A stretch of DNA of 64,000 nucleotides from Ruminococcus bromii (GTDB lineage: Bacteria > Bacillota > Clostridia > Oscillospirales > Acutalibacteraceae). Positions within the stretch are counted from its first letter, which is position 1, and each line of letters opens with the position of its first letter. Both the position numbers and the translations under genes were made by a program. This document shows, one piece after another, positions 1,720-62,597 of the stretch. The stretch covers positions 62,001-126,000 of the forward strand of contig NZ_NNBY01000027.1 of the NCBI RefSeq assembly GCF_002834235.1. Direction: 5' to 3'. The notes below the pieces were generated by a model. It searched no databases and was not told the DNA's origin. It saw nothing but the letters and a program-made list of their open reading frames with translations.

Positions 1720-2604
1720 TTATCTTTCATAATCTTTTGAGCGTGCCTGCTTTTTCTTATACAGTTCATCGGACACACGGGAATGAATATCTGTCATCGC
1801 ATTTCTCGTCTTGGATAGTTCAAAACGAATGTCCTTCGGCTCTTTGTTTGCCAGCTTATCCGGAATACGGTTGATGGCAAAATTCTGTGTATCAATACCG
1901 TACTTTTTGCAAAGCATATATCCGATACACACCGCCTGAAAGCCCATATCGGAACGACTGTAACTGTCGCTGTTGATGGAAAGCTGTGCGTGTCCCAGTT
2001 CCTGTGCTACGCACTGAGCAATCGCTACGCTGTCTCCCACATCACGTTTTACATACAAGGTTTGCTCCTCATTGTTGTAAAACGCTGCCATATTCGGATA
2101 GGGGAGGTCGTTTGTTGCTTCTACATTCACAGGAGAAGAATCAAGCATTGTGGTAATCAGTGCTTTCGGGTCACGATTAGCTGTCGGTGCAGGCGGTCGT
2201 TTCCCATTGGTCTGTGCCACATCAAACACTTTCTTCACATTGTAGGAAATGCCTGTTGTTCCGTCACGCTTTGCATATTCTACCGGTTCAAGAATGGATA
2301 TGCTCTTAGCACCTTTTGTAATTTTAATGTTGTCTTTGCTCCAGTCATCAAAATCTTTAAGCTGTACCGCCTGCGGATACTGCTTGTAAATCAAAAGTGC
2401 GTTGACTGCCGAATATCTGTCAAGTCGGCTCTGTGTATCAAGGAACGCTTTGAATTTCTCCGGCGAAGATACAATCTCTTTCGCCGCTTCATCCGCAAGC
2501 TGATACACACCGTCTTTCTCGGCTCGTTTCTTCTCAGCATATTCCTCTTTGGAAAGTCTCGGTCGCTGACCGCCTGCTTTTGCAGGAGTAAAATTTTCTG
2601 TCAT
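1720..2604 (-). CDS. ArdC-like N-terminal domain protein with degenerate zincin motif
   Basis: A 294-residue protein. The N-terminal half (about residues 35-150) resembles the ArdC single-stranded-DNA-binding domain found in antirestriction and conjugation proteins (FLDTQSRLDRYSAVNALLIY, then DWSKDNIKITKGAKSI). The C-terminal half looks like the zincin-like metallopeptidase domain that usually follows. Here the expected HExxH site reads QELGH near residue 203, so the first metal ligand is Gln and proteolytic activity is doubtful. It may protect incoming single-stranded DNA or antagonise host restriction. It starts at ATG 2604 after an AGAGAGG ribosome site, six bases beyond the stop of the PcfB-like gene. 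Confidence 0.8.
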   Translation of the reverse strand: MTENFTPAKAGGQRPRLSKEEYAEKKRAEKDGVYQLADEAAKEIVSSPEKFKAFLDTQSRLDRYSAVNALLIYKQYPQAVQLKDFDDWSKDNIKITKGAKSISILEPVEYAKRDGTTGISYNVKKVFDVAQTNGKRPPAPTANRDPKALITTMLDSSPVNVEATNDLPYPNMAAFYNNEEQTLYVKRDVGDSVAIAQCVAQELGHAQLSINSDSYSRSDMGFQAVCIGYMLCKKYGIDTQNFAINRIPDKLANKEPKDIRFELSKTRNAMTDIHSRVSDELYKKKQARSKDYER

Positions 2605-2609
2605 TGTAA

Positions 2610-3416
2610 TTACCTCTCTTTCGGTTTCTTGGATTTTGTTTTCGGCTGTTGGTGTACCGTCTGCTTCGGTACAGAAGGATGCTTTGCCTTATCTGTTTCC
2701 GGCTCTTTGCGTTCTGCTTCTTTTTGCTGTTTTGCCTGAGCCTTATAGCGGTCAAGTTTCTCTTTAACCGATGGCTTCTTCTGTCTGTCAACAGCAATAC
2801 CCTTATCAGTTTGCATATCTTCCGGCTCTGAGTTTTGCCTTGACGGAGGGTTTTTGTCCGTTTTGGCGGTTGTGGGGTTTGACTGTGCGTTTTCCTCTTT
2901 CTGAAGTGGTTTTCGTACAGCTTCCTCCGTGATGATTTCATTCTTGGATTTTGTCGGCTTATCTTTTTCCACGGCTTCTCGTTTTTCAACCGCCTTCTGC
3001 GATTCTGTTACGATTGCCGCCTTATCCACCTTACCGAGTTCAAATCTCTCAACGATTCTCTGAATTTTAGAAGCGTCCTCCGCACGTGCGATAATATCAA
3101 TCGGGACATTATCTCCCCTTGTATTCTTATCTCGAAGAACACAATAGAGAACACCGTAGCGTTTTGCCTGTTCGGTGAATTTCTTCAAGTCCTTATTCGG
3201 AATAGAAAACACTTTCAATTCTTTGCCCGATTTAATCATATTGGTAAGACGGGCTTTTCCTCTGGTCTTGTTCGCCTGCGTTGCTTCCTGTTTTAATACG
3301 GAAGCAAGAAGAATTGCGATATTCTTTGCGGCTGAACCGGTAAGTCTTGCAGCAACTTCAAAGCCTTCAACGGATAACCTGACGACCTGTTCGGCTGCAT
3401 CACCTGAATTTGTCAT
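2610..3416 (-). CDS. PcfB-like (DUF3801) conjugation accessory protein
   Basis: The N-terminal about 150 residues (starting MTNSGDAAEQVVRLSVEG, with NKDLKKFTEQAKRYGVLYCV further on) match the PcfB/DUF3801 family, relaxosome accessory proteins that in pCF10 bind the relaxase and help dock it to the coupling protein. The C-terminal about 110 residues are a Lys/Glu/Pro-rich low-complexity tail. I chose ATG 3416 instead of the longer frame beginning at 3503 because GGAG lies about ten bases before it and it overlaps the relaxase end by 17 bases, a normal coupling arrangement. Length is then 268 residues. Confidence 0.85.
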   Translation of the reverse strand: MTNSGDAAEQVVRLSVEGFEVAARLTGSAAKNIAILLASVLKQEATQANKTRGKARLTNMIKSGKELKVFSIPNKDLKKFTEQAKRYGVLYCVLRDKNTRGDNVPIDIIARAEDASKIQRIVERFELGKVDKAAIVTESQKAVEKREAVEKDKPTKSKNEIITEEAVRKPLQKEENAQSNPTTAKTDKNPPSRQNSEPEDMQTDKGIAVDRQKKPSVKEKLDRYKAQAKQQKEAERKEPETDKAKHPSVPKQTVHQQPKTKSKKPKER

Positions 3417-4764
3417 TTCGCTTTTGCTCCTTTCGCTGTTGTTTTTCTTCTTCGGCTCTGATTGTTTCAAGGTTCTGCTCCATACCCTTTGACCTCTCGG
3501 CAATGTCGTTACAGAGTCGAACCTCTTTGTTCAGTTCCCGAATTTTGTCGCTTACCGTCGAAATCTGTTCTTTGACCTTAGACAGCTCATCGTCACTCAT
3601 CTTTGTTCTTACTTTTTTTCGCAGGTGCGTTCTGTCGTCATTCAAAGTATTAATTTGACCTTTCAGCGACTCTTTATATGAGAAAAGCTGCTCGTCCGTA
3701 GAAATATTTTCTCGTCCGAGCAGCCTTGTCTCTGCTGTGATTTTATCCAGCTTCAATAAATCCTCTTTCAAAAGATAGTGAAGCCTTGCTGTATTCTGTT
3801 TTTTATATTTTGGCAGATAACCGAGCCTGTAACAGTAATGCAGATACAAGCCATACAGTCCGCCCACTTTTTTGATTTTATTTTCTCTTGTAGGCAATCG
3901 GTACTGCCTGATAACCACCGTATGCTTTACAAACGGAACTATGCGTACTCTCTGATTTTCCATAAGCCTACGCCTGATTGCTTCCTCGGTATAATCTTCT
4001 CCGAGATTTTTAAGTCGTATGGGTTTCGTGTACCCTTTCGGTACAATCGTCCAATACTTCCGGCTCTCGCTTAGATAATGCTCATATCCCATCTGCGTAA
4101 GTGCGTAGTCAAGACTTCTGATATTTGTGCTGTGGGCAATCGCTTCATCTATGGCTTCTCGCACCATAGAATATCTGGTCTGCATTCCCGCCTGTTCCTG
4201 CTTATAGTAGTAAGAGGATTGTTTACTGCGATTCGGATTCGGATTGTAATATAATCCATATTTCTCACAAATACGGTCGGCAACTTTTCTGAACTTAAAC
4301 CACGAGGTATCTTGACATCGCTTGCCGTCTTTGAATGAAACAGAGTTAATTACATAGTGGCAATGCAGGTGTTTGGTGTTCAGGTGCGTTGTAACAACAA
4401 CTTGAAATCTTTTCCCCCACACTTCGTTTGCAAACTCCATTCCGATTTTCTGTGCAAGCTCCGGTGTGATATTTTGTTCCTTAAAACTCAAATATCCGTG
4501 ATAGGCTTGTATGCCGTCCTCTTTCCCATATGCCTGCTTGACTGAAACAAATTGGTCACGGGCAGTGGTCGGATTACAGTTGATACCTTCCACGAAATAT
4601 TCTCGTTCGGTTTTTTCTTCGTCCTTTGCATAGGAGAGAACATCTGCAAGTGCCTGATATTGTTCCTCGGTATAAATATCTGCCGCTGTCTTTTCAGGAT
4701 TAGCGGCATAATCAATAACCTGACCAAGCCTTGAATTGACTGCCCACAACTTGCTTACTGCCAT
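3400..4764 (-). CDS. relaxase / mobilisation nuclease (MobP-like)
   Basis: The 454-residue relaxase of the element. It would nick one strand at oriT and stay covalently bound through a tyrosine while the strand is transferred. The N-terminus (MAVSKLWAVNSRLGQVIDYA) is typical for Tn1549-family relaxases. The three-histidine metal site is seen as THLNTKHLHCHYVINSVSF near residues 122-142. The C-terminal third is rich in charged helices (about residues 350-454), probably coiled coil. The start ATG 4764 overlaps the end of mobC by ten bases. The probable oriT lies about 480 bases upstream. Confidence 0.92.
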   Translation of the reverse strand: MAVSKLWAVNSRLGQVIDYAANPEKTAADIYTEEQYQALADVLSYAKDEEKTEREYFVEGINCNPTTARDQFVSVKQAYGKEDGIQAYHGYLSFKEQNITPELAQKIGMEFANEVWGKRFQVVVTTHLNTKHLHCHYVINSVSFKDGKRCQDTSWFKFRKVADRICEKYGLYYNPNPNRSKQSSYYYKQEQAGMQTRYSMVREAIDEAIAHSTNIRSLDYALTQMGYEHYLSESRKYWTIVPKGYTKPIRLKNLGEDYTEEAIRRRLMENQRVRIVPFVKHTVVIRQYRLPTRENKIKKVGGLYGLYLHYCYRLGYLPKYKKQNTARLHYLLKEDLLKLDKITAETRLLGRENISTDEQLFSYKESLKGQINTLNDDRTHLRKKVRTKMSDDELSKVKEQISTVSDKIRELNKEVRLCNDIAERSKGMEQNLETIRAEEEKQQRKEQKRNDKFR

Positions 4765-6728: not shown

Positions 6729-9700
6729 TTATCTTTCATACGACTTCTCCTTTCGCTTCTCGGTGGATTCGCCCTCATCAGGCTCGCCGCCCACAATTTC
6801 ATTTTCCTTTTTATCCATATTGAGCAAGATATTCAATTCGTCCAAACGGGCAAGTTTTGACTTCAATTCTTCTTCCTGCACAAACGGTTTTTGGACTTCT
6901 TTTTGTGCAGTTTCAAACTGATTTTTCGTATCAGCAAGACTGTCCTTTGCTTTTTCAAGGTCGTCTGCAAAACGCTCAACCGCATTATCAATACGAGTGA
7001 TATTACCGAAAACATCATCGCCAAGCGATACCTGTTTGCCGGTTTCTCCTTTGACTGTTACGCAATAAAAACGCTCCGTCGTATCAAAAGAAAGTTCTGT
7101 TTCAAATCCTCTATACCTGCCCAGAGGAACAGGTGCAGGACTTGTCATCTCCTTGCAGGCTGCAATGATTGCTTTGCCGGCTTCTGCTTTTTCGGAATAA
7201 AAAACACCCTTAACCTCCATCCCGACAAAGCGGTCATCTGTTGGTTTCGGGTGTTGTTTTGCAGTTTCCACATCTGCCGTCAAACCGTTAATTCGGTTTT
7301 CAAGAGAAGTGATACGCTGCGGATAATATTTAATTATCTTGTCCTCAAGGCTGTACTTTTCAGATAAGAAATTGGATTTTAAAAGCTTCAATTTCTGTAC
7401 CTGAATGTCCAAATCCATCTTTTCCTTGATATATGGATTGCCTGTTGCAAGCATTTTAATCTCGGCATAAGACAGTGCGGTTTCATCAATATCTTCTGCA
7501 CTCCTAACAGGAGATTTGCTCGTCATAATCTGACTTGCAAACTTCTGCTTACCCTCAACAAGCTGATACAAATATGCGTCAAAGGTCTGCTTTGTAACAT
7601 AACGATAGATTTCCACCTTTGGATTTGAATTGCCCTGACGGATAATTCTACCACTGCGTTGCTCCAAGTCTGCCGGTCGCCAAGGACAATCAACATCGTG
7701 AAGTGCGATAAGCCTGTCCTGAACATTCGTACCGGCACCCATCTTTTGTGTTGAACCCATTAGCACTCTGACCTCTCCTTTACGAACTTTCTGAAACAGT
7801 TCCTTCTTTTTCACATCGGTTTCTGCTTCGTGGATAAATCGGACTTCGCTTTCGGGAACACCTCGCTCTATGAGCTTCTTTCTGATGTCATTGTAGACAG
7901 AAAATGTTCCGTCATTCTTTGGTGTCGATAAGTCGCAGAACACTAATTGTGCTGACTTTTTATCTTTGTTTTCCTCCCATATGCGGTACACATTATCAAC
8001 GCAGGCATTGATTTTGCTGTTCTCGAAGTCCGGCAGCATAGCATTTAGCATACGCTGGTCAAGTGCAAGTTTTCTTCCATCGTTTGTGATTTTAAGCATA
8101 TTATCTACGCTTGAATCTACACCTCCGCCACGAACTTTCTCGGCTCGCTCTGCAAGGGAGGCAACCATTTCTTTCTGCATTTCGGACGGTTCTACCGACA
8201 CATTATGATACTCTGCTTCCGGCACAGGAAGATTAAGCATATCGGCTGTTTTAATGTCTGCAACCTCTTTGAACATCGCCATAAGTTCGGGCAGATTATA
8301 GAATTTAGCAAAGCGTGTTTTCGCTCTGTAACCCGTTCCTTCCGGCGTAAGTTCTATTGCTGTTACCGTTTCTCCAAATGTGGAAGTCCAAGCATCGAAG
8401 TGCTGTAATCCATTTTTTACAAGGGTATTATATTGCAAGTATCGCTGAATGGTATAAAGTTCTACCATACTGTTTGAGATAGGCGTACCTGTCGCAAATA
8501 CAGTTCCTCGCCCGCCGGTAATCTCATCAAGGTATCGGCACTTCATAAAGAGGTCGGAAGATTTCTGTGCTTCCGTCTGTGCGATACCTCCTACATTACG
8601 CATTTTTGTGTAAAGATAAAGGTTCTTGTAGTAATGGCTTTCGTCAATAAAAAGCCTGTCCACACCTAATTCTTCAAAGGTTACAACATCATCCTTTCTG
8701 CTTTGGTCGTTGAGTTTTTGTAGCTTTTGCTTGACGGATTTTCTTGATTTTTCAAGCTGTTTGACAGAGAAGTTTTCCCCTCGATTACGCTTTAGTTCTG
8801 CAATTCCTTCCGTCAATTCATTCAACTGCTGTTCAAGAATTGCCCTCTGCCTTTCAATGGACATCGGAATTTTCTCAAATTGAGAATGCCCGATGATAAC
8901 TGCGTCATAATCTCCTGTTGCAATTCTGCCACAGAACTTTTTACGGTTCTTTGTTTCAAAATCTTTCTTCGTTGCAACCAGTATATTTGCCGACGGATAA
9001 AGTTGCAAGTATTCCGCCGCCCACTGTTCCGTCAGATGATTCGGTACAACAAACAGCGATTTATTACATAGTCCGAGTCTTTTCGACTCCTGCGATGCCG
9101 CTACCATCTCGAACGTCTTGCCTGCCCCGACTGCGTGTGCAAGTAAGGTATTTCCACCATAAAGAATGTGAGCTACAGCATTTCTCTGGTGTTCCCTTAA
9201 TGTGATTTCCGGATTCATACCACTAAATGTGATGTGACTTCCGTCATACTCACGAGGTCTTATGCTGTTGAATTTTTCGTTATACATCTTTGTCAGCTTT
9301 TCTCTGCGGTCAGGGTCTGCCCATATCCAATCCTGAAAACCTTGCTTGATAAGTTCCTGCTTTGCCTGTGCGATTGCCGTCTCCTTTTTATTAAGGACAG
9401 CCTTTTTCCTGCCCTCATCATCTTCGATATAGTCAAAGATACGGACATCTTTCAGGTTCAGCGTTTCCTCAATTATCTTGTAGGCATTGATACGACCTGT
9501 GCCGTATGTGCTATATGCTTTGACATTGGAACGGTCATAGGATTTACCCTCGATATTCCACTCGCCCGTATAGGGAGAGAAGTGAACTTTTATATTCCAC
9601 TGTGCATATCTCGGTGTATCAAGGAACTCAAACATAAACTGCTGGATTACTTCCTGCGGTAGCCAAGTAGCACCGAGCCTTACAGATATTTCACTTGCAG

Positions 9701-12700
9701 TCAAGTCTTTCGGCTGAACCTTTTCCAATGCTTCCACATTGATTTTATAATCTTCAGGATACACCTCGGCAGATTTTTTTGCTGTGATAAGTTTCTCCCT
9801 GATATTACCAGAGAGATATTCATCTGCCATCAAATACTTTGCCTCGGTTACATTCCCGTACCCGTGAAGAGGATTTAAGAAGATAACACCTTTCAAATCC
9901 TGATAGAGTGTTTCTTCATTTTTACCTGTGAGCTTTGACATATATTCCATATCAATTCCGGCTTTTTCTCCCATAGAAACAGCAAGTGCTTCACTGGCGG
10001 TATCTACCTTTTCTACCGGCTTATGCGGCTTAATTGTACGCTTGAAGAACATATCTGCCTTGCGTTCCAGTTCTCCGTTTTCGTTAATGACTTCAAGTGC
10101 AGAAAGCAAGGCAAAGGAACTGTCATCACTGAAAGCAGAGATATTTGCTCTGCTGTTAATCAGTCCATATTTCTTGGTATAACTGTCATAAAGACTGTTG
10201 AGTTTTGACTGCTCGGCTTTGATTTCTTCGTCCGGATAGTCCTCGGTTTGAAGTTCAATCAGATTGCGAACGCTGTCACGAACCGCAATCATACCCTTGA
10301 TTCTGTTCTCGGCGGTTGCCGACACCTCCACCGGAGTCATACGAGAATTCTCACGGAAATAGATTTTATCGTCCACCACTGTGTAAGAAAAATTCCTTAC
10401 CGTAGGGTCGGCAGGGATAGAATTATCTTCTTCCTCCAACTCGTCGGTTACTTCGTAATCGTTTATTTCTCCGTGGATATTTGCTACCGCTTCCGATAAC
10501 AATTCGGATAAATCGGCATTTTCAAACGGTACACAAGTTACTTCTTCTCCAAAGCGTCCACTTACTGTTTTCATCTCGCCCAGTATCATTTCGGAATGTT
10601 CCACAAAGTACGAGTTCATCGTGATACCGTCATCGGTTGTGCCAAGTTGTACCCAATTAGGCTCTATATCTATGAGCCTGTCACGCTTTTGCAGGAACAA
10701 AATATCCGATACAACCTCTGTACCGGCATTGCCTTTGAAAGTATCATTTGGAAGTCTAATTGCTCCCAACAGGTCGGCTCTTTGTGCGATATATTTTCTG
10801 ACCGACGAATTGGTTTTATCCATCGTGCCTTTGCTCGTAACAAGTGCCATCACACCGCCGGGTCTTAATTTATCCAAAGACTTGGCAAAGAAATAATCGT
10901 GAATAAGGAAGTTATACTTATCGTACCTCTTATCAAGCACCTTGAAATCGCCAAACGGAACATTCCCCACAACTCCGTCAAAGAAACTATCCGGCACATT
11001 GACTTCTTCAAATCCCTGTGCTGCTATGGATGATTTCTGATAAAGTTGCTGAGCAATCCCTGCCGAAATCTTATCAAGTTCCACGCCGTAAATCTTTGTG
11101 TTTTCCATTGAATTCGGCAGCATACCGATAAAATTACCGATACCGCAGGACGGTTCTAACAGATTGCCCTCACGAAAGCCCATCTGTTCCATTGCCTTGT
11201 ATATAGCGTCGATAACTTCGGGTGGAGTATAAAAGGCGGTTAATGTGCTTTCTCTTGCGGCGGCATATTCATCGGAAGACAGTGCTGTATATAGCTCAAC
11301 AAATTCATCTGCCCAAGCAGAATTGTTCTCGTCAAAGGCTTCGGACAAACCTCCCCAGCCGACATATTTAGACAAGATAAGTTGTTCTTCCGGTGTGGCA
11401 AATCTGTTTTCAAACTCACACTCTTTCAAAACTTTTATCGCTTCCATATTTCTGCGGAAGCGTTCTTTCTTGCCTGCCGGTTCTACCGGATTGGAACGCA
11501 AATCAAAAGTATTTCTCTCTGCCATCGGAATATCCGGGTGCAAATCAAAACTCTTGACCTTGCTCTTTTTATTCTCCCACTGCGGTTTTATCGGTTCAGG
11601 CTCTTTATCATAGCCGTTGCCGATACGAATGCCCTCGTTATACATTTCAACGTAGCTGTCGAAGCCATTCTGATTTGCAATGATTTCTCTGTAATCCTCA
11701 ATCGGAACATTGCCGATATTGGTTACTACCATATCACTTCTTTCGGCATTTTCAATGAGTGCTTCCATTGTGGCTGAAGTACAGTCGGTAAAATCCGGTG
11801 TCTGTCTAAAAGCATTATCTGCTTCTTCAAACCATTCTGTACCTACATCGGCAAGAGTTTGATTTGCGATACTGCCGAGGTAATCAAAGAACTCATCTGC
11901 CGACTTATTGTCTTGTGCCGCTTTTCTGATTTCATCAAAAGAAAGCGTATTTGTAACATACTGACCGCCGGCATTACTGTCCGGATTAAAGTACATCCAA
12001 GTAACGCTTTCCTGTTCTCTGTTAATGAAAAACGCATCCTCATAATATGTTTTCTGTTCGGTTTCGGTATCACTATGCGTGATATTTTCGTCTGTATCGG
12101 CTTTTTCTGCTGCTGGTAATACCGTTACTCTCAAATGGTCATTAAGCGGATTTTCCTGCACCTTACGGTCAAATTCAGCACGCTCAAACTCCTTGTTGAA
12201 CAATGGCATTTCGGTATCATAAAGCATTACTCTCTCATCATCAAAAGATAAGATTTCATACTCCGCTGCACCGATATATACCGTGTCTCCAAGATGATAT
12301 TCATATCGGGTATCAGGTAATTGCTGTTCCTGTGTTTGCACTGCAAGCAGACTGCGGACATAATCAATCTTCTCCACACGGTTAATCGGTAAGCCTACGC
12401 TGTCCTCAAAAGTGACATCACGCATAGAAACATCGCCACTGATTTTACCGACGCTTTCAATAACAAATCGGCGGTCATCAATCACAATTTTCTTACCGAT
12501 AATATCGTCATCATTTGCCTGCTCAGCTTCTTCCGGTGGTGCAGTAGAAAGAATTTCCCGATTTCTTTTCTGCTCCTCGATTTCTGCCCGTCTTGCTTCC
12601 TGCTTCTCAAGCCACTGCGGATACTGCTCCTTTTCCTTTGGATTTAAGTATCTATCTGCACGGATAAGCTCCCCGATACGCTTTTCCACCTGTGTCCATT

Positions 12701-14570
12701 TAAGAGTGAGTTTCGGTGCGTCGTTTCCAAATCCTCTTGAAAGAGTTATGCCTTTCCCATCGTGGTTTTCATCAATACCTGCACCGATAATGACAGGATA
12801 TGAACCTCCCCAACCGTATTCGTTTTTGAGAAAGTCTGCATTTTCTTTTGAAGATAAACTCTTTTGAAACTGCTCATAGATACGCATTTTACCTTCGTGA
12901 ATACCGCTTCCACGAGTCAAAACTGCGTCGATAATCTCCTGAGAAAAAGTAAAGGCAGAGGTTTTGTTTTCCTCTGCCTGACCGTCTAATATGAAGCTCA
13001 TCTGTCCGTCTGCCGACGGTAGTGGTTTCATTCTATCATTTAATTCTCCCAAAAGACGCATTGCTTCAAAGTGCTGTGCAATCACGCTCCAGTTATAGAA
13101 ACTCTGTGCAGTTCTGCTGTCATAATGACCTTCCCAAAGGTGCAAAACATTTTGAAATGTCTTGTAACCTACGGTTCTGCCATCCTCTAATGTGAGTTCC
13201 GTATAGTCGTTATTGAAGATGCTCTTGATATATTCGGTACGGGTATCGCTATCGGTATTTCTCTCATAGAAGTCTTTAATATCTTCGAGAGAAGCCAACA
13301 AATGCGGTGTAGTACCGAGTATTTCTCTTATAGTATCATCTCTGCCGAAAAACGGCAGGCTCTTGTCCTCGTTGCTTCTGTCATAATACTCTAAATGAAT
13401 ATTACCTGTGCTTTCACGACTTCCTGTGCCGAGTTCCTGATGTTGTTCATCAAGCGAATCCAATTCATCATATCGTCCGCTTTCATCTGCTCCGTCAGCC
13501 CCTCTTGCTGTGCCATCTGCCTGATAAGCGTCTCCTCCAACTCGGTCGCCCTCTGCTGGACTTCCGACAGATGACTGCTCAGTATCCCTTTCGTCAGGAG
13601 ATTGTAATACTGAACCTTGTGGTGTTCTTTCAGATAAGTTCTCCTCATCTGCGACCATTTGCCCTGAATGACCTCCGGCTGTTCGGGCAGAGTCAGGTTC
13701 GGAAGATTGTAATCCCCGACCATCGTGTATGTTATCTCGTTCATAATCGCTGCTCCTTTCGTCTTTGATGTCTTTATTGTATTCCGGTTGCCTGTTTGCT
13801 TCAATTATGCGATTTTGACGGTTCAGTGCCATCACTGTTTTTGAGATTTCCGAAAGCCCCATCTCTGCAATATCGCTTGTGGCAAATCCCAGAGCGTTCA
13901 TCGTATCCTGCGTATTGAAATTGGTAACATCTCGAAAATCATCGGCTTCAAAATATTCGCCGGTATCAATTCCAAGCCTTGTCATCATCATATATGCCAC
14001 GCTGTTTGTTACAACTTTTTTATACAGACTTGCAATCATCGTTTCGTCAAGTCCTTCAAGGAAACTGTCCTCGGAAGCATAGATGAGGTCATTAAGATAA
14101 TCCGGCAAATTATCTTCGGCGGCATTTTGTGCGGCACTCATAACTGCTTCGCCCAAAGTGACTTTGTTATCCAGTTCTCCGAATGTGCTTTCAAGCGTTT
14201 CAATAACATCGTCAGTGTATTCGTCCCTCATATTCCAAAGCGGAACAGGACGGGAATATCTGCTCTCGTGAGTATCGGAAATATCGAAGTAGTGGGTAAG
14301 TCTTTGTCTTGCTCTGTTTTCATCGGCAAATACCGCAATGCCTCTTGCACCTTTATTTACCCATCGTCCAAAACTCCTGTTCCAACGCTCGATTTCAAGA
14401 ACCGCCGTAGCGTCCGGTCGCTGTGCATAGATAAGCAACTGCTCATCATATCGCAGCTTGTAGTTTCTGCACGCAGACCGCAAGAAATTCTGCCAGTTCT
14501 GCGGATTGGAAACAACCGTCTTACAGGTTCTGTCATAGAGTTCGGATATGAGTTCATATTTTCTTGACAC
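6729..14570 (-). CDS. giant N6-adenine methylase plus SNF2-like helicase protein (LtrC-like)
   Basis: A 2613-residue multidomain protein, the largest gene of the element. The N-terminus (about 1-250) is the domain seen at the front of LtrC/ArdC-like ICE proteins. A low-complexity linker covers about 270-400. The methylase part has VGWGGLSEAF near 1075, the SAM motif LLEPSCGIGNF near 1140, and GNVPFGDF in the catalytic NPPY position near 1205. The helicase part has Walker A HAVGAGKTF near 1813, DESHYY near 1976 and helicase motifs QKMGAGTNVQDR to RSGRIIRQG near 2290. A coiled coil closes the protein. It probably modifies element DNA and remodels or unwinds it during transfer; substrates are unknown. 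The start is GTG 14570, nine bases after AAGGAGG. The linker DNA also encodes TnpV in another frame. Confidence 0.92.
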   Translation of the reverse strand: MSRKYELISELYDRTCKTVVSNPQNWQNFLRSACRNYKLRYDEQLLIYAQRPDATAVLEIERWNRSFGRWVNKGARGIAVFADENRARQRLTHYFDISDTHESRYSRPVPLWNMRDEYTDDVIETLESTFGELDNKVTLGEAVMSAAQNAAEDNLPDYLNDLIYASEDSFLEGLDETMIASLYKKVVTNSVAYMMMTRLGIDTGEYFEADDFRDVTNFNTQDTMNALGFATSDIAEMGLSEISKTVMALNRQNRIIEANRQPEYNKDIKDERSSDYERDNIHDGRGLQSSEPDSARTAGGHSGQMVADEENLSERTPQGSVLQSPDERDTEQSSVGSPAEGDRVGGDAYQADGTARGADGADESGRYDELDSLDEQHQELGTGSRESTGNIHLEYYDRSNEDKSLPFFGRDDTIREILGTTPHLLASLEDIKDFYERNTDSDTRTEYIKSIFNNDYTELTLEDGRTVGYKTFQNVLHLWEGHYDSRTAQSFYNWSVIAQHFEAMRLLGELNDRMKPLPSADGQMSFILDGQAEENKTSAFTFSQEIIDAVLTRGSGIHEGKMRIYEQFQKSLSSKENADFLKNEYGWGGSYPVIIGAGIDENHDGKGITLSRGFGNDAPKLTLKWTQVEKRIGELIRADRYLNPKEKEQYPQWLEKQEARRAEIEEQKRNREILSTAPPEEAEQANDDDIIGKKIVIDDRRFVIESVGKISGDVSMRDVTFEDSVGLPINRVEKIDYVRSLLAVQTQEQQLPDTRYEYHLGDTVYIGAAEYEILSFDDERVMLYDTEMPLFNKEFERAEFDRKVQENPLNDHLRVTVLPAAEKADTDENITHSDTETEQKTYYEDAFFINREQESVTWMYFNPDSNAGGQYVTNTLSFDEIRKAAQDNKSADEFFDYLGSIANQTLADVGTEWFEEADNAFRQTPDFTDCTSATMEALIENAERSDMVVTNIGNVPIEDYREIIANQNGFDSYVEMYNEGIRIGNGYDKEPEPIKPQWENKKSKVKSFDLHPDIPMAERNTFDLRSNPVEPAGKKERFRRNMEAIKVLKECEFENRFATPEEQLILSKYVGWGGLSEAFDENNSAWADEFVELYTALSSDEYAAARESTLTAFYTPPEVIDAIYKAMEQMGFREGNLLEPSCGIGNFIGMLPNSMENTKIYGVELDKISAGIAQQLYQKSSIAAQGFEEVNVPDSFFDGVVGNVPFGDFKVLDKRYDKYNFLIHDYFFAKSLDKLRPGGVMALVTSKGTMDKTNSSVRKYIAQRADLLGAIRLPNDTFKGNAGTEVVSDILFLQKRDRLIDIEPNWVQLGTTDDGITMNSYFVEHSEMILGEMKTVSGRFGEEVTCVPFENADLSELLSEAVANIHGEINDYEVTDELEEEDNSIPADPTVRNFSYTVVDDKIYFRENSRMTPVEVSATAENRIKGMIAVRDSVRNLIELQTEDYPDEEIKAEQSKLNSLYDSYTKKYGLINSRANISAFSDDSSFALLSALEVINENGELERKADMFFKRTIKPHKPVEKVDTASEALAVSMGEKAGIDMEYMSKLTGKNEETLYQDLKGVIFLNPLHGYGNVTEAKYLMADEYLSGNIREKLITAKKSAEVYPEDYKINVEALEKVQPKDLTASEISVRLGATWLPQEVIQQFMFEFLDTPRYAQWNIKVHFSPYTGEWNIEGKSYDRSNVKAYSTYGTGRINAYKIIEETLNLKDVRIFDYIEDDEGRKKAVLNKKETAIAQAKQELIKQGFQDWIWADPDRREKLTKMYNEKFNSIRPREYDGSHITFSGMNPEITLREHQRNAVAHILYGGNTLLAHAVGAGKTFEMVAASQESKRLGLCNKSLFVVPNHLTEQWAAEYLQLYPSANILVATKKDFETKNRKKFCGRIATGDYDAVIIGHSQFEKIPMSIERQRAILEQQLNELTEGIAELKRNRGENFSVKQLEKSRKSVKQKLQKLNDQSRKDDVVTFEELGVDRLFIDESHYYKNLYLYTKMRNVGGIAQTEAQKSSDLFMKCRYLDEITGGRGTVFATGTPISNSMVELYTIQRYLQYNTLVKNGLQHFDAWTSTFGETVTAIELTPEGTGYRAKTRFAKFYNLPELMAMFKEVADIKTADMLNLPVPEAEYHNVSVEPSEMQKEMVASLAERAEKVRGGGVDSSVDNMLKITNDGRKLALDQRMLNAMLPDFENSKINACVDNVYRIWEENKDKKSAQLVFCDLSTPKNDGTFSVYNDIRKKLIERGVPESEVRFIHEAETDVKKKELFQKVRKGEVRVLMGSTQKMGAGTNVQDRLIALHDVDCPWRPADLEQRSGRIIRQGNSNPKVEIYRYVTKQTFDAYLYQLVEGKQKFASQIMTSKSPVRSAEDIDETALSYAEIKMLATGNPYIKEKMDLDIQVQKLKLLKSNFLSEKYSLEDKIIKYYPQRITSLENRINGLTADVETAKQHPKPTDDRFVGMEVKGVFYSEKAEAGKAIIAACKEMTSPAPVPLGRYRGFETELSFDTTERFYCVTVKGETGKQVSLGDDVFGNITRIDNAVERFADDLEKAKDSLADTKNQFETAQKEVQKPFVQEEELKSKLARLDELNILLNMDKKENEIVGGEPDEGESTEKRKEKSYER
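13391..13744 (-). CDS. tnpV: TnpV-like transposon protein, overlapping gene inside the helicase gene
   Basis: A 117-residue protein encoded on the same strand as the giant helicase gene but shifted one base, wholly inside it. From memory it strongly resembles TnpV, the small protein first described in the Tn4451 family: ITYTMVGDYNLPNLTLPE, then RRTYLKEHHKVQYYNLLTKG, then EGLTEQMKADDMMNWIRLMN. Its ATG (13744) has AAAGGAG eight bases upstream, a full ribosome site in the middle of another gene. In the helicase frame the same bases encode residues about 276-393, a Ser/Gly/Asp/Glu-rich linker with no obvious fold, so the sequence seems constrained mainly by the TnpV frame. TnpV function is unknown. 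No frameshift is needed to explain either frame. Confidence 0.8.
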   Translation of the reverse strand: MNEITYTMVGDYNLPNLTLPEQPEVIQGKWSQMRRTYLKEHHKVQYYNLLTKGILSSHLSEVQQRATELEETLIRQMAQQEGLTEQMKADDMMNWIRLMNNIRNSAQEVVKAQVIFI

Positions 14571-15438: not shown

Positions 15439-15528
15439 TTATTTCTTTCTGTTTTTAATCTGTAAGAAGATAAAGCCGCCGATAATAAAGGCGACCAAAA
15501 CAACTGCTACGATTGTCTTTGCGTCCAT
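15439..15528 (-). CDS. 29-residue single-pass membrane peptide coupled to adhesin gene
   Basis: A tiny protein: a short cytoplasmic start (MDAKT), one hydrophobic helix (IVAVVLVAFIIGGFIFLQI) and a positively charged end (KNRKK). Its ATG shares one base with the adhesin stop codon (TAATG), so ribosomes finishing the adhesin would reinitiate here. Too short for ordinary gene callers. It could be a membrane partner for pilin or adhesin export or sorting, but that is inference from position only. Confidence 0.6.
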   Translation of the reverse strand: MDAKTIVAVVLVAFIIGGFIFLQIKNRKK

Positions 15529-18500
15529 TATTCATTGCCCTCCTTTTTCTTCTTTCTCTTGGAAGCAACAACCGTTGCAACAATACCGAGTGCAGAAGCA
15601 CCTGCAAGTGCTACCCAAAGACCGGTCTTTTTGTCATCACCGGTTTTCGGTGTGTCACGAAGTTCGTTATGCATCTCGATTTCTACCGTTTCGCCGACCT
15701 TTACGGTCACTTTCTTATCGGCAGGTAAAATATATCCGGCAGATACATTGTCGCTGACCTCGGACACTGTGTATTCTCCGATACGAAGTCCATCTATGGA
15801 GATTTCGCCATTCTTATCGGTTGTAAAGGTGCTGTCATAACCGTTTACACCTGTCACTCTGAAAGTAAATCCTTCCACATTACCGTCGGAAGATGTCTTT
15901 TTGATTTTCAGGCTGCCTTTCATCGCTTCGTTGATAAAGCCGACTCCCGCTTTGTTTTCTACCTTGTAGGTGGTTTCATCTTTTTCAATGAATACGGAGT
16001 AAACGCCCTTATCAAGCACAAATCCCTCCGGTGCTTTGGTTTCTTGTACAAGATATTTACCGTAGAGAATTTCTTTCATCTCATAGATACCGGTTGCGGT
16101 TTCTTCAAGATTTCCGATAAGTTCATCGCCATCGTCCAGTTTACCGTCGCCATTAACATCCTTATACACATCAAAAGTTGCACCTGTCAGTTTGTTATCC
16201 GGATAATCAGCGTCCACTTTGGTAAGTTCAATATTACCGTAAATATACTCGTCGGTAATTTCCACTTCGATGACCTGCTCATTCTCCCCGATATTTACTT
16301 CGTAAGAAGTATCATCAAGCACAAAGCCTTCAGGAGCTTCAATCTCTCTTACAATCCATTTTCCGTAAGGAACTTTGGCAAAAGAAAAACTGCCGTCCTT
16401 TTCAGATGTGGCAGTCATAATAGCGTGTTCTTTTGTATACTCGGTTTCATCTGCTTTGAAAATGCCGATTAAAGCACCGCCCAGTGCTTCTCCGTTCTCG
16501 TCAATCTTCTTACCAAATACAGAACCGTAAATGAGTTTGTTCTCAATCGGCTTACCGTCATTTACCTTGATTTCAACCGTTTCGGTATCCTGACCAGCAT
16601 ACTCGAATGTGAACGGGTACTGTGTGTCGGAGAGGATATAATGTTCGTCCGTAGCAATTTCCTTGATATAGTAACTGCCAAACGGAAGGTCTGTATTTGC
16701 AGTCGCTGTTCCGTTTTCATCAAGCGTGATAATCTCAATCAAACCGTCAGCCGGAATTACTGTACCGCTCGAAGATACAATGTCTTCTTTTGCGTAAAGA
16801 CCGAAGCTGATGTTTTTGATTTTATCATTCTTGCCGATACCAAAGGTTTCATTCTGTTCAAGCACCTTTTCAAGGGAAATCTTCACTTTCTGTCGCTCGT
16901 TTACGAAGCTGGTTGCGGTTTCTGTTACCGCTACATCCTGTCCAGCATAAGTGAGTTCTACTGAATGTTTTTCTTTATTGATAACCATACCGTTTGGTGC
17001 TTTGGTTTCAACAACAGTATATTTACCAAGATAGAGTTCCTTGCTCTTGGCTTTGCCATCCTCATTTGTTGTTACGGTATCTACCACATCGCCCTTGTGA
17101 TAACGAAGTGTACCGTCCGGTGTGATAACATCTTCGTCGGCAGTGATTTCATAAACCGCACCTGCAAGTCCTTTGACCTTATACACTGGCTGATAAATCA
17201 CATCTTTATCTTCCTCGCCGGATACATTGACACCAAAGAATACTTCGCCGGTTTTCTCAACGGAAATCGTACCTTTCTGTGCCATATTCGGCTTATCCAC
17301 CTTAATCAATGTGATACCGCCTTCCTGTGTGGAATTTTCTTCTGTCACATCAAAAGAAACAGGAGTACTGTCGAGTACATATCCATACGGAGCCTGAACC
17401 TCAACAAGTGAATATCCCTTGCCATAGTCCAGTTTTTCAGGTGTAACAAGCTGACCGTCTGCGTCGGTATAGAATGTGTCGATGGTTGTCGGTGTAGGAT
17501 AAGTAAATGTCATACTTACTTTGTTACCGGCAGGGTCATAGATTTGGAAGCCTGCACCTGCATACGGAATTGTCTTGCCTGTTTCTGCATCAACCTTTAC
17601 GACCTTGATATATGACTCAAAGTTGGCATTGTTGATGAGATAACGGTAAGTCTGACCGTCCTGAGAAATGAAAACATCAAAGTCTTTCATAAGCTCACGA
17701 CCTTCCCAACCTTTGGTCTGATGAACGGTATATACACCATACGGCATATCCTTTGTCTGAGCAAATCCGTTTTCATCGCAAACAATAGTATCTCTTTCAT
17801 CTTTGTCGGCTTTTTCAAATGAGCCGGAAGATTTCAGATACACTTCAAATTCAGCACCATTTTCCGGTGTCTCAATCTTGGTTTCCCCATCATCGGTATG
17901 TTTGATGATAGCGATATTGCCTTTCATAACCTGCTCTGTCACATCATTTGCCACAAGATTGTGTTCAATCGTAAAGAGTTTTGGCTCTGCACCTACCTTG
18001 TGGATTGTCTTATCAAGGAGATAACCCTCGGACGGTGTGATTTCTCTGATTGTCCAATCGCTGTCGCAGACATATTCCTTTGTTGTGAACTGCCCCTCGC
18101 TGTCTGTCACATACTTATCCACAAGTGTGTCGCCTTTATAAATTCCGTAAACAGCACCGGAGAGTTTTGCGTCGCCCTGAGCAGTGCCTTCTTCTCGGTC
18201 ACTCTTTGTTACTGTAACGCTGAACTTTTTAAGAATATTGGTAAAGTCTCGATTTGTAACCTCGTTCCATTTAATCGGTGCAGTCTGCTTTTCAGGAACG
18301 ACATAACGGATTTCTGTATCCACTTCTTCGAGCGTATATGGTGTGCTTCCGCTGATAAGCACATCTTTGAATGTTGCTACACCATTTTTGTCAGTAACCG
18401 CATATTCATCAACGGCAATACCTGCAAGGGAAGTACCGTAAAGGTGGAATTTCACACCCTCAACAAGATTATCTTCCGATGATTTAATGACCTGAAGATT

Positions 18501-19778
18501 ACCTCTTTTGAGAACATTATTGAAGTTTACTGTTGCTACCTGACCGGCAACAACGGTTACTCTGTGAACCTCTTGCGGTACATATTTGTCGATAGATTGC
18601 TCTGTTACCGTATATACGCCCGGCATAAGGTTGTCAATCTGGAACTTACCACCGTTTGCTGTGGTAACTGTCTGATTTACTCCGTTGCCTGAAATAGTGA
18701 AATTGATACCGTCAACCTTTCCGTCCTCAGATGTTTTCACAATCTGACAAGAACCGTAGCTGACTTTCATCTTTACATATCCGCTTACAGGGTCGCTGAC
18801 TTCCTGTGCGTAAGTAACAACATCCTGCACACTTGAATTTTGACCGTGCTTTCCCTCAGACCATACGATGACACCTCTGCGGACACCGTTTTTCTTACTT
18901 GCGGTAATAGTAAATTCCTTACTCGGTGCTTTATCCATTGACACCGTAAGTTTGTTTCCGCTTGTGGAAAATGTTACACCACTGATATTCGCCTTGAAAT
19001 CATAATTGGAGAGTACACCGTTTGAGTCTGTAAGAGTCGCAACATATTTGCTTCCGTTCCATTCAAGTTCATTTACTTTCGCTGAACCGCTTGATTTAGT
19101 ACAGAAGCTCGGCACAACTGTATGATTCTGCACACTGCTGACCATACTGTTGTAGTAATTCATAATCTTACTGCGAAGCGGATGTTTGGCATTGATAACA
19201 TCTTTCACATTGCTGCAACCACTGGCTGCTTTGTGATTAAAGTTTGCGTCACGCTCTCCTACGACTGTTTCCCAAATAAGAAGCTGTGTTGCATAAGCGT
19301 GAGCAATACTGTTTGCCGCACTTTCGTTCTGCGACCTCCAGCTTGTTGAAATCGTTCCTCGATAGCCGTGCTGCAAGATACGACCGATAAAGAGTCTGAT
19401 TTCATCGCCGGAGATAACTCCGTTTGCTGTGATATTGTTAAAATAATTTTCATCGTATTTGTTCATACTCTGACCGGAGCTGAGTGAAACACCCGGCTCG
19501 ATACAATAGGCAATATTACCGGAATATGAACCGATTGCCTTTAAGTTAGTGTGGGTAGAACTGCCGGTATGCCAACCGTTCTTCAAAGTAAGGTTACTGT
19601 GTCCCCACACACCGTCGTAATTTGCGTCGCCGTCACGAGGAAAATCAACCATATACACTTTGGTCTTTTCTCCGCTTGCAGCAAACGCTGTGCTTGTCCC
19701 AATACTCATAAAAGCACTGAGACTGAGAACCGTCGCCATAACAAACGATACGGCTCTCTTGATTTTCGTCTTTACCAT
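15528..19778 (-). CDS. thioester/Cna-B repeat surface adhesin (SpaA-like, sortase-anchored)
   Basis: A 1416-residue cell-wall protein. A signal peptide occupies residues 1-34 (…STAFAA). The N-terminal domain (about 35-320) resembles a thioester domain: YCIEPG supplies the Cys and ATQLLIWE the Gln, which in known proteins form an internal thioester that bonds covalently to host surfaces. About ten Cna-B/SpaA-type repeats follow, with starts such as GSCQIVKTSEDG, GNLQVIKSSEDN and GNIELTKVDADYP, stiffened by isopeptide bonds in this family. One repeat contains a calcium-loop-like DVNGDGKLDDGDE. The C-terminus has a sortase-like TPKTGD, a hydrophobic helix and KRKKKK. It may hold mating cells together or bind host tissue. 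Start ATG 19778 follows AAGGAGG. No sortase gene is in the window. Confidence 0.92.
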   Translation of the reverse strand: MVKTKIKRAVSFVMATVLSLSAFMSIGTSTAFAASGEKTKVYMVDFPRDGDANYDGVWGHSNLTLKNGWHTGSSTHTNLKAIGSYSGNIAYCIEPGVSLSSGQSMNKYDENYFNNITANGVISGDEIRLFIGRILQHGYRGTISTSWRSQNESAANSIAHAYATQLLIWETVVGERDANFNHKAASGCSNVKDVINAKHPLRSKIMNYYNSMVSSVQNHTVVPSFCTKSSGSAKVNELEWNGSKYVATLTDSNGVLSNYDFKANISGVTFSTSGNKLTVSMDKAPSKEFTITASKKNGVRRGVIVWSEGKHGQNSSVQDVVTYAQEVSDPVSGYVKMKVSYGSCQIVKTSEDGKVDGINFTISGNGVNQTVTTANGGKFQIDNLMPGVYTVTEQSIDKYVPQEVHRVTVVAGQVATVNFNNVLKRGNLQVIKSSEDNLVEGVKFHLYGTSLAGIAVDEYAVTDKNGVATFKDVLISGSTPYTLEEVDTEIRYVVPEKQTAPIKWNEVTNRDFTNILKKFSVTVTKSDREEGTAQGDAKLSGAVYGIYKGDTLVDKYVTDSEGQFTTKEYVCDSDWTIREITPSEGYLLDKTIHKVGAEPKLFTIEHNLVANDVTEQVMKGNIAIIKHTDDGETKIETPENGAEFEVYLKSSGSFEKADKDERDTIVCDENGFAQTKDMPYGVYTVHQTKGWEGRELMKDFDVFISQDGQTYRYLINNANFESYIKVVKVDAETGKTIPYAGAGFQIYDPAGNKVSMTFTYPTPTTIDTFYTDADGQLVTPEKLDYGKGYSLVEVQAPYGYVLDSTPVSFDVTEENSTQEGGITLIKVDKPNMAQKGTISVEKTGEVFFGVNVSGEEDKDVIYQPVYKVKGLAGAVYEITADEDVITPDGTLRYHKGDVVDTVTTNEDGKAKSKELYLGKYTVVETKAPNGMVINKEKHSVELTYAGQDVAVTETATSFVNERQKVKISLEKVLEQNETFGIGKNDKIKNISFGLYAKEDIVSSSGTVIPADGLIEIITLDENGTATANTDLPFGSYYIKEIATDEHYILSDTQYPFTFEYAGQDTETVEIKVNDGKPIENKLIYGSVFGKKIDENGEALGGALIGIFKADETEYTKEHAIMTATSEKDGSFSFAKVPYGKWIVREIEAPEGFVLDDTSYEVNIGENEQVIEVEITDEYIYGNIELTKVDADYPDNKLTGATFDVYKDVNGDGKLDDGDELIGNLEETATGIYEMKEILYGKYLVQETKAPEGFVLDKGVYSVFIEKDETTYKVENKAGVGFINEAMKGSLKIKKTSSDGNVEGFTFRVTGVNGYDSTFTTDKNGEISIDGLRIGEYTVSEVSDNVSAGYILPADKKVTVKVGETVEIEMHNELRDTPKTGDDKKTGLWVALAGASALGIVATVVASKRKKKKEGNE

Positions 19779-61949: not shown

Positions 61950-62597
61950 TCAACCAATGCCGATAATTCCGAGAAGTCCCGTGTATTCAAGCGAAAGGGC
62001 AACGGGAATTGAAATCAGCAGAGAAAATGCACTCTGTTTTACATCCTTGAACAAAATTCCGATGCTTGCAAGCCAAAGTATAAATTCGGGGAAGTACAGA
62101 ATTCTGAAATCGGCAAAGTTGAGATTAAACGCAAAGCAACAGAATATTGCTATGAGTACGGAAGAAATTCCGATTGCAAGCGCACCCCGTCCCCTTGCAT
62201 ACCAAATCAGAAATGCCAAAAACGGCGATACAACAGCAAGAATCAGCCACCTCATAAGGTACGGAATATCGGGATAAAAGCCTGCAAAAACACTTGTCCA
62301 CACATAGTACCCTATTAACATTCCCACAAAAAACGCAAAAACATTAATTCCTGCTTTTAAGGGTGATTTGCTGAATACGGCAAGGCACACGGCAATAAAA
62401 ATCCACGGTGCCGTTCTGCCCAAAAAGTTTGACAAATCAAGCCAATCGAGAAAGCTCGGCAGTCTGTTCAAATCAAGAAACTTTGCGACAATTCCCATGC
62501 CACCGCCAAAAAGCAGAGCAAAGAATGTTGTCATAATTTGTTTTGGTACGGACATTTTGCCCGATACCTTTCGGGTTTTATTCAAAATTTTTAACAT
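61950..62597 (-). CDS. multi-pass membrane protein of unknown function
   Basis: A 215-residue protein with about six hydrophobic helices (about 22-40, 64-80, 84-104, 115-132, 140-160, 170-205). The first part GGGMGIVAKFLDLN is distinctive, and the whole resembles the DUF6518-type membrane proteins from memory, without certainty. No catalytic motif is seen. It stands alone between DUF951 and the patatin gene. Confidence 0.72.
   Translation of the reverse strand: MLKILNKTRKVSGKMSVPKQIMTTFFALLFGGGMGIVAKFLDLNRLPSFLDWLDLSNFLGRTAPWIFIAVCLAVFSKSPLKAGINVFAFFVGMLIGYYVWTSVFAGFYPDIPYLMRWLILAVVSPFLAFLIWYARGRGALAIGISSVLIAIFCCFAFNLNFADFRILYFPEFILWLASIGILFKDVKQSAFSLLISIPVALSLEYTGLLGIIGIG

Follow-up and report, generated by a model that had tools for sequence, protein, structure and literature searches.

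To our knowledge, strong evolutionary support exists for few same-strand nested genes of bacteria, and most of those on record are young orphans. Here we analyze tnpV, very probably a gene nested on the same strand and out of frame within a large methylase-helicase gene of Ruminococcus bromii (Bacillota, Clostridia). The locus lies on contig NZ_NNBY01000027.1 of assembly GCF_002834235.1, in a stretch of 64,000 nucleotides (positions 62,001 to 126,000) that is hereafter called the window and numbered from its first base, and its surroundings look like an integrative and conjugative element (ICE). The bacterial overlapping genes reported so far include ano, pop, asa and mcjX (PMC5960689, PMC7103648, PMC6294744, PMC13361873), the last being a same-strand +1 gene of 31 residues that overlaps only the end of mcjA (PMC13361873), and nog1, a recent, short and non-essential orphan in frame -2 of citC (PMC4683798). 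Like tnpV, these genes lie inside or across another gene and were left out by annotation programs; unlike nog1 and mcjX as they are reported, tnpV is a member of a known family, is found again in diverged helicases and faces an outer frame that appears unconstrained. The ardD gene inside tniA of Tn5053 (PMC3533173) is likewise an accessory gene nested in a mobile-element gene, but, going by that account, it occupies the complementary strand, is found in one transposon and encodes an antirestriction protein. In Streptococcus suis, TnpV also meets an ICE snf2 gene, as integrative and mobilizable elements (IMEs) and cis-mobilizable elements (CIMEs) sit in it (PMC9815147); there, as described, TnpV arrives with the inserted element, whereas in the window tnpV is part of an intact helicase gene. 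The TnpV proteins of Tn4451 and IMEs (Pfam PF14198) and the window tnpV product belong to the same family over their full length, but the former are encoded by free-standing genes and the latter inside a helicase gene in another frame. No report of a TnpV nested in a helicase was found in the open-access literature, subscription papers being mostly outside that coverage. Such a nesting would amount to a replicated natural experiment on the tolerance of an outer protein for a foreign reading frame, and would add a hidden component to a common class of ICE.

The open reading frame (ORF) of tnpV (13391..13744, minus strand; 117 residues and a stop codon) lies wholly within the ORF 6729..14570 of the same strand, a helicase gene of 2613 residues with a GTG start, and is read in the +1 frame relative to it, one base downstream, over helicase residues 276-393. 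Translation and ORF coordinates thus bear out the same-strand nesting claimed in the original prediction, which had been made from the bare letters. The inner frame is fully inside the outer one and has a start and a Shine-Dalgarno (SD) signal of its own: the AAAGGAG motif that had been pointed out is indeed present at 13759-13753 (13753..13759, minus strand), eight bases ahead of the ATG at 13744, where the helicase-frame codons specify Glu-Arg-Ser. Comparison with Pfam likewise upheld the family assignment, the tnpV product matching the TnpV profile PF14198 with 137.5 bits (E 2.3e-40, cut-off 27) over profile positions 1-111 of 111. The host protein combines an ArdC-like N-terminus, an Eco57I-type methylase and an SNF2 helicase, with Pfam matches to Eco57I, SNF2-rel_dom, ResIII and Helicase_C; proteins matching its N-terminus in plasmid records are named ArdC family protein, SNF2-related protein or helicase-related protein. 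An AlphaFold2 model of residues 1-560 predicts a folded N-terminal domain (residues 1-259; 13794..14570, minus strand; ten-residue mean predicted local distance difference test score, pLDDT, 63-96, mostly above 80) and a folded domain behind the linker (residues 402-511; 13038..13367, minus strand; ten-residue mean pLDDT 52-86). Between them lies a linker predicted to be disordered (residues 260-401; 13368..13793, minus strand; pLDDT below 50), which holds the overlap. Read in the TnpV frame, the linker DNA gives a hairpin followed by helices, with a mean pLDDT of 86.3 and a predicted template modelling score (pTM) of 0.69, in agreement with the earlier description of a featureless helicase linker set against a folded TnpV frame.

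The same arrangement recurs widely. The R. bromii genome has eight TnpV matches, three of which are inside helicases, all at offset +1, these helicases showing 100, 58 and 33% identity to that of the window (best tblastn segment), and the own-genome helicase frames can be aligned through the overlap with 50 and 31% identity; within 1.5-kb flanks, the five other TnpV loci of the genome gave no match to the window helicase. Relatives were sampled with a profile of the helicase N-terminus, so that the choice of loci did not depend on TnpV. This profile matched 78 of 291 genomes of the class, and TnpV was present at offset +1 in 80 of 85 helicase places, 77 of them inside an open helicase ORF; 47 further matches (at most 60.6 bits, ORFs of 128-1367 residues, mostly partial profile matches) were left out of this count. 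The five misses comprise three contig ends (L088, L091, L115), one gene disrupted after 186 codons (L084) and one intact helicase that has no TnpV (L087). Named genome contigs, from a collection that shares some genomes with that of the class, had TnpV in 54 of 62 loci, the remainder being contig ends (L162, L165, L182, L188), N-terminal fragments (L186, L187, L189) and L180, which diverges from the family within the start of tnpV. A search of 398 genomes of the phylum recovered 33 with a match, and outside the class 20 of 21 helicase loci carried TnpV, the exception being L257 (weak short-ORF rows were left out, and L233-L243, L246 and L247 were set aside as not this helicase). The offset is +1 in all 154 TnpV-bearing loci of the three samples, and contig ends or broken genes account for 12 of the 14 misses, leaving two helicases (L087, L257) without tnpV. 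A further search of the same 291 genomes with the domain behind the linker, in which most rows beyond 35 loci were left out and the places largely repeat those sampled by the N-terminus, matched 53 genomes and found TnpV in 32 of the 35 loci examined; its misses are a contig end (L307) and the 3' parts of two split helicases (L308, L309). Altogether 108 distinct nested sequences share one place and one offset, L071 being the sole member of the 109 entries labelled nested whose TnpV is an inserted element's own; it is still included in the 109-entry start, Arg-codon and wobble counts below. Hosts among the genome contigs include Ruminococcus, Blautia, Lacrimispora and Oscillibacter, those among plasmids Anaerococcus, Cohnella and Virgibacillus, and the N-terminal domains of helicases with a nested TnpV fall to about 21% identity with that of the window; a scan of viral contigs with the helicase N-terminus found no relative. 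This recurrence in diverged relatives supports the earlier suggestion that the linkers of many ICE helicases conceal a gene or formed around one. In four plasmid records in which both frames match their profiles and the helicase frame is open over the stretch, the gene table used, which is stated to be incomplete, lists one protein each: TnpV in Monoglobus (where an SNF2 protein starts 1.9 kb further on) and Cohnella, and the helicase in Anaerococcus and Virgibacillus.

Substitution patterns, with each change classed by its effect in both frames, indicate which of the two frames is constrained. For 35 disjoint pairs (70-97.5% identity) the ratio of nonsynonymous to synonymous change (dN/dS) within the overlap is 0.18 (0.16-0.21) for TnpV and 1.02 (0.91-1.15) for the helicase frame; 37 pairs under wider limits give 0.17 (0.15-0.20) and 0.91 (0.82-1.02). 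In the control, the helicase N-terminus of the 37 pairs, dN/dS is 0.16 (0.14-0.18) in the helicase frame and 0.79 (0.73-0.85) in an imaginary +1 frame, so the baseline for an unused frame is nearer 0.8 than 1. The identity bands 70-80, 80-90 and 90-98.5% agree, with a TnpV dN/dS of 0.13-0.18 in each. Differences at helicase codon positions 1, 2 and 3 run at 0.223, 0.104 and 0.084 in the overlap, where substitutions gather at TnpV wobble positions, and at 0.131, 0.089 and 0.324 in the N-terminus. Judged by these patterns, purifying selection acts on the TnpV frame, and the two frames exchange their selective roles cleanly from the overlap to the neighboring helicase domain, while amino-acid selection on the helicase frame within the overlap was not detected in either the 35 or the 37 pairs. 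The original prediction had named two observations that would speak against it, stop codons or a lost start or ribosome site in relatives and a lack of selection on the TnpV frame; instead, the frame, its ATG and an SD-like site persist, and it is the TnpV frame that shows selection.

The possibility that the nested gene is a remnant, in which a TnpV-bearing element once inserted in the helicase gene and left a TnpV frame that is decaying or kept only as DNA, fits some present-day arrangements. TnpV-bearing elements are reported to insert into snf2 genes today (PMC9815147), the L071 locus carries the insertion of one, and in both L019 and L197 the start of a free TnpV lies 16 bases past an interrupted helicase-like ORF. 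Yet the low TnpV dN/dS in every identity band and the concentration of substitutions at TnpV wobble positions leave such a remnant scarcely credible, though insertion may be the ancient origin of the nested tnpV. The L197 ORF has an SNF2 domain by Pfam, that of L019 was judged by residues alone, and the two loci look as if TnpV-bearing elements end in snf2 genes (compare PMC9815147). In L071 (G076:C216) the element, which carries a serine recombinase and a TnpV of its own, is located at the 3' end of the nested tnpV, and the domain-behind-linker match of L308 lies about 20 kb from this insertion.

Given that no amino-acid selection was detected on the helicase frame in the overlap, it could be argued that TnpV is the sole real gene at the site and that the helicase is in fact two separate genes, the frame between them being open by chance or codon bias. 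L053 (G054:C50) would fit this, as it has a single helicase-frame stop near TnpV codon 14 with the TnpV frame intact; the ORF there that encodes the domain behind the linker nonetheless spans 2195 codons. However, the helicase frame is open across the overlap in 107 of 108 nested copies, while the same relative frame is open in none of the 26 TnpV genes outside helicases. With the TnpV protein held fixed and the codon usage of the same helicases applied, the mean expected openness is 0.0008 (0.08% of draws, 107 copies). Within-gene codon shuffling gives weaker odds of about 6% (mean 0.057; two shuffle means of 0.057 and 0.067), since the T-poor codon content, which may itself be a product of stop avoidance, is retained in the shuffle. 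T is moreover depleted at those wobble sites at which its presence would give a stop in the helicase frame (9 of 2586 in the nested set, eight of the nine from one non-nested entry, vs 151 of 580 in free genes), the figures for other wobble sites being 1348 of 5360 and 535 of 1282. By these estimates the helicase frame is not open across tnpV by chance, and a sole gene at the site appears quite improbable.

A frame that is merely open, a linker predicted to be disordered and a constrained TnpV frame together mark the linker of the helicase as a gene's shadow. The intact helicase L087, which has no tnpV, points the same way: 264 residues separate its profile origins vs a median of 387.5 and a minimum of 330 in 162 loci with TnpV (a set that counts duplicates of one place), making its linker about 124 residues shorter than the median. 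L257 was left out of this comparison, its N-terminal match being partial.

The start signals of tnpV are also conserved. The start is ATG in 109 of 109 distinct entries, and AGGA or GGAG occurs in the expected interval in 103 of 109 vs 7.3% (1940 of 26610) of matched positions in the helicase N-terminus, counts that are somewhat flattered because the start codons of relatives were picked by a score favoring ATG and a strong SD. Less affected by this score is the helicase-frame codon that lies 13 to 11 bases upstream of the tnpV ATG, which is Arg in 87 of 109 entries and AGG in 82 of those 87, while AGG makes up 13.5% of the Arg codons in the same helicase N-termini. These signals also bear on programmed frameshifting from the helicase frame, which would yield a fusion of the N-terminal domain with TnpV instead of a free protein. 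The shared strand, the constant +1 offset and, in the window, a TnpV frame that is open for 20 codons ahead of its ATG are all compatible with frameshifting, but it is rendered highly improbable by the ATG in every distinct entry, the SD-like site in 103 of 109 and the strongly preferred AGG codon of the helicase frame at the SD, all of which point to internal initiation; slippery sites were not searched for.

Thus, the locus very probably harbors a real, old, same-strand nested gene, such that one stretch of the helicase mRNA would encode two proteins, translation of both frames being predicted from sequence. Ribosomes starting at the helicase start would read the stretch as a flexible, disordered linker between two folded domains, whereas those starting at the internal SD and ATG would yield the small and mostly helical TnpV. 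TnpV is likely expressed by internal initiation on the helicase mRNA, which would produce it whenever the helicase is transcribed, so that nesting would tie the supply of TnpV to the helicase transcript; a promoter scan around the tnpV site found six promoter-like sites vs 3.2 expected, an uninformative difference. Several points weigh against this reading. The scoring of starts in relatives is one, and another is that helicases L087 and L257 carry no tnpV and therefore do not need it to persist. The TnpV model has no structural relative at E of 0.001 or below in Foldseek searches of the PDB and BFVD, its best VIA-align Z of 6.0 is within the stated noise for helical models, and a profile search of PDB sequences gave nothing usable. 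Finally, the linker may or may not be under hidden selection: the helicase frame is depleted in hydrophobic residues (0.125 vs 0.213 expected, 107 of 107 below), but the unused third frame shifts as well (0.225 vs 0.360), and for that reason this depletion was rejected as a sign of linker selection, which is not claimed.

As to origin, the helicase N-terminus and the nested TnpV co-diverge (Mantel r 0.84, 76 loci, 0 of 1000 permutations), as is expected under long common descent. Trees of 112 TnpV proteins, and of 108 after four long branches were dropped, require six label changes between nested and free copies, with the free copies mostly together and the nested ones more diverse. By the approximately unbiased (AU) test, a single clade of all 35 free copies is not rejected (p 0.22), nor is one of a core of 30 (p 0.92); the trees have 113 usable columns, and the free copies come from a biased sample (best Pfam hits and the viral-contig scan). 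The term overprinting, used in the original prediction, holds as far as it denotes a same-strand overlap. In its usual sense of a new gene born in an old frame it does not: TnpV has free-standing homologues and is itself the constrained frame, and de novo origin of a young orphan in an older frame is accordingly not supported. In a somewhat unlikely scenario, the primary form of TnpV is the gene nested in conjugative helicases across Bacillota, the free Tn4451-type and IME copies are its offshoots, and the ICE and IME copies act at the same mobility step, which would connect the hidden gene of the ICE with the tendency of TnpV-bearing elements to invade snf2 genes; alternatively, the helicase might be a fusion of ArdC-like and helicase genes straight through an intervening tnpV.

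The function of TnpV can be approached through its free relatives. Excisionases of the lambda Xis type are small DNA-binding proteins with a winged-helix fold. The TnpV of Tn4451 has been postulated to be involved in excision on account of homology with lambda Xis (PMC3158075); no lambda-Xis-like entry is among the structural matches listed for the TnpV model. Among the 44 non-nested entries, a serine recombinase immediately precedes TnpV in seven and occurs within 3 kb in another four, as against 1 of 126 nested entries with one within 3 kb (six such proteins served as seeds for the recombinase profile, and the flanks covered were short). A Pfam scan of 10 of the 35 ORFs upstream of free TnpV genes recovered three serine recombinases, one Mob_Pre relaxase, one coupling protein of a type IV secretion system, one phage-type integrase, one interrupted SNF2 protein and one GGDEF protein, the other two having no family. 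Given this adjacency to recombinase, relaxase and coupling-protein genes, along with the Tn4451 postulate, we tentatively favor an accessory or regulatory role in excision, mobilization or transfer. Nearly as likely, and possible in its own right, is that the gene is real but its product serves the helicase itself as a chaperone, inhibitor or subunit, as the near-constant co-occurrence and the co-divergence of the two would suggest; on the other hand, free TnpV genes exist with no such helicase N-terminus seen within the fetched flanks, and two helicases do without TnpV.

In the R. bromii genome a second copy of the helicase appears to be split into two pieces. One (L006, G000:C36:231547-234879) has the N-terminus and tnpV at 233047-234217, beside a frame that reads, by residues alone, like a tetracycline-resistance ribosomal protection protein. 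The domain-behind-linker match lies about 40 kb off at 192257-192622, in the other piece (L309, G000:C36:188000-194500), next to a frame that reads, again by residues alone, like a serine recombinase. Around the window helicase, a family scan identified further element genes, including a MobA/VirD2-type relaxase (3400-4764), a SpaA-domain surface protein (15528-19778), DUF3846 and DUF3991/Toprim proteins, ParB and ParA. Genes of chromosomal type, namely a class II tRNA synthetase, GreA/GreB and FtsX, then follow the element, and the ORFs upstream of the window, named by their first residues alone, are presumably of conjugation and restriction-modification type. On the same element, an ORF of 294 residues (1720-2604, minus strand) matches the helicase N-terminal profile at 1882-2505 with 50 bits and no Pfam family at E 1e-5, and is possibly a free-standing relative of the ArdC-like domain.

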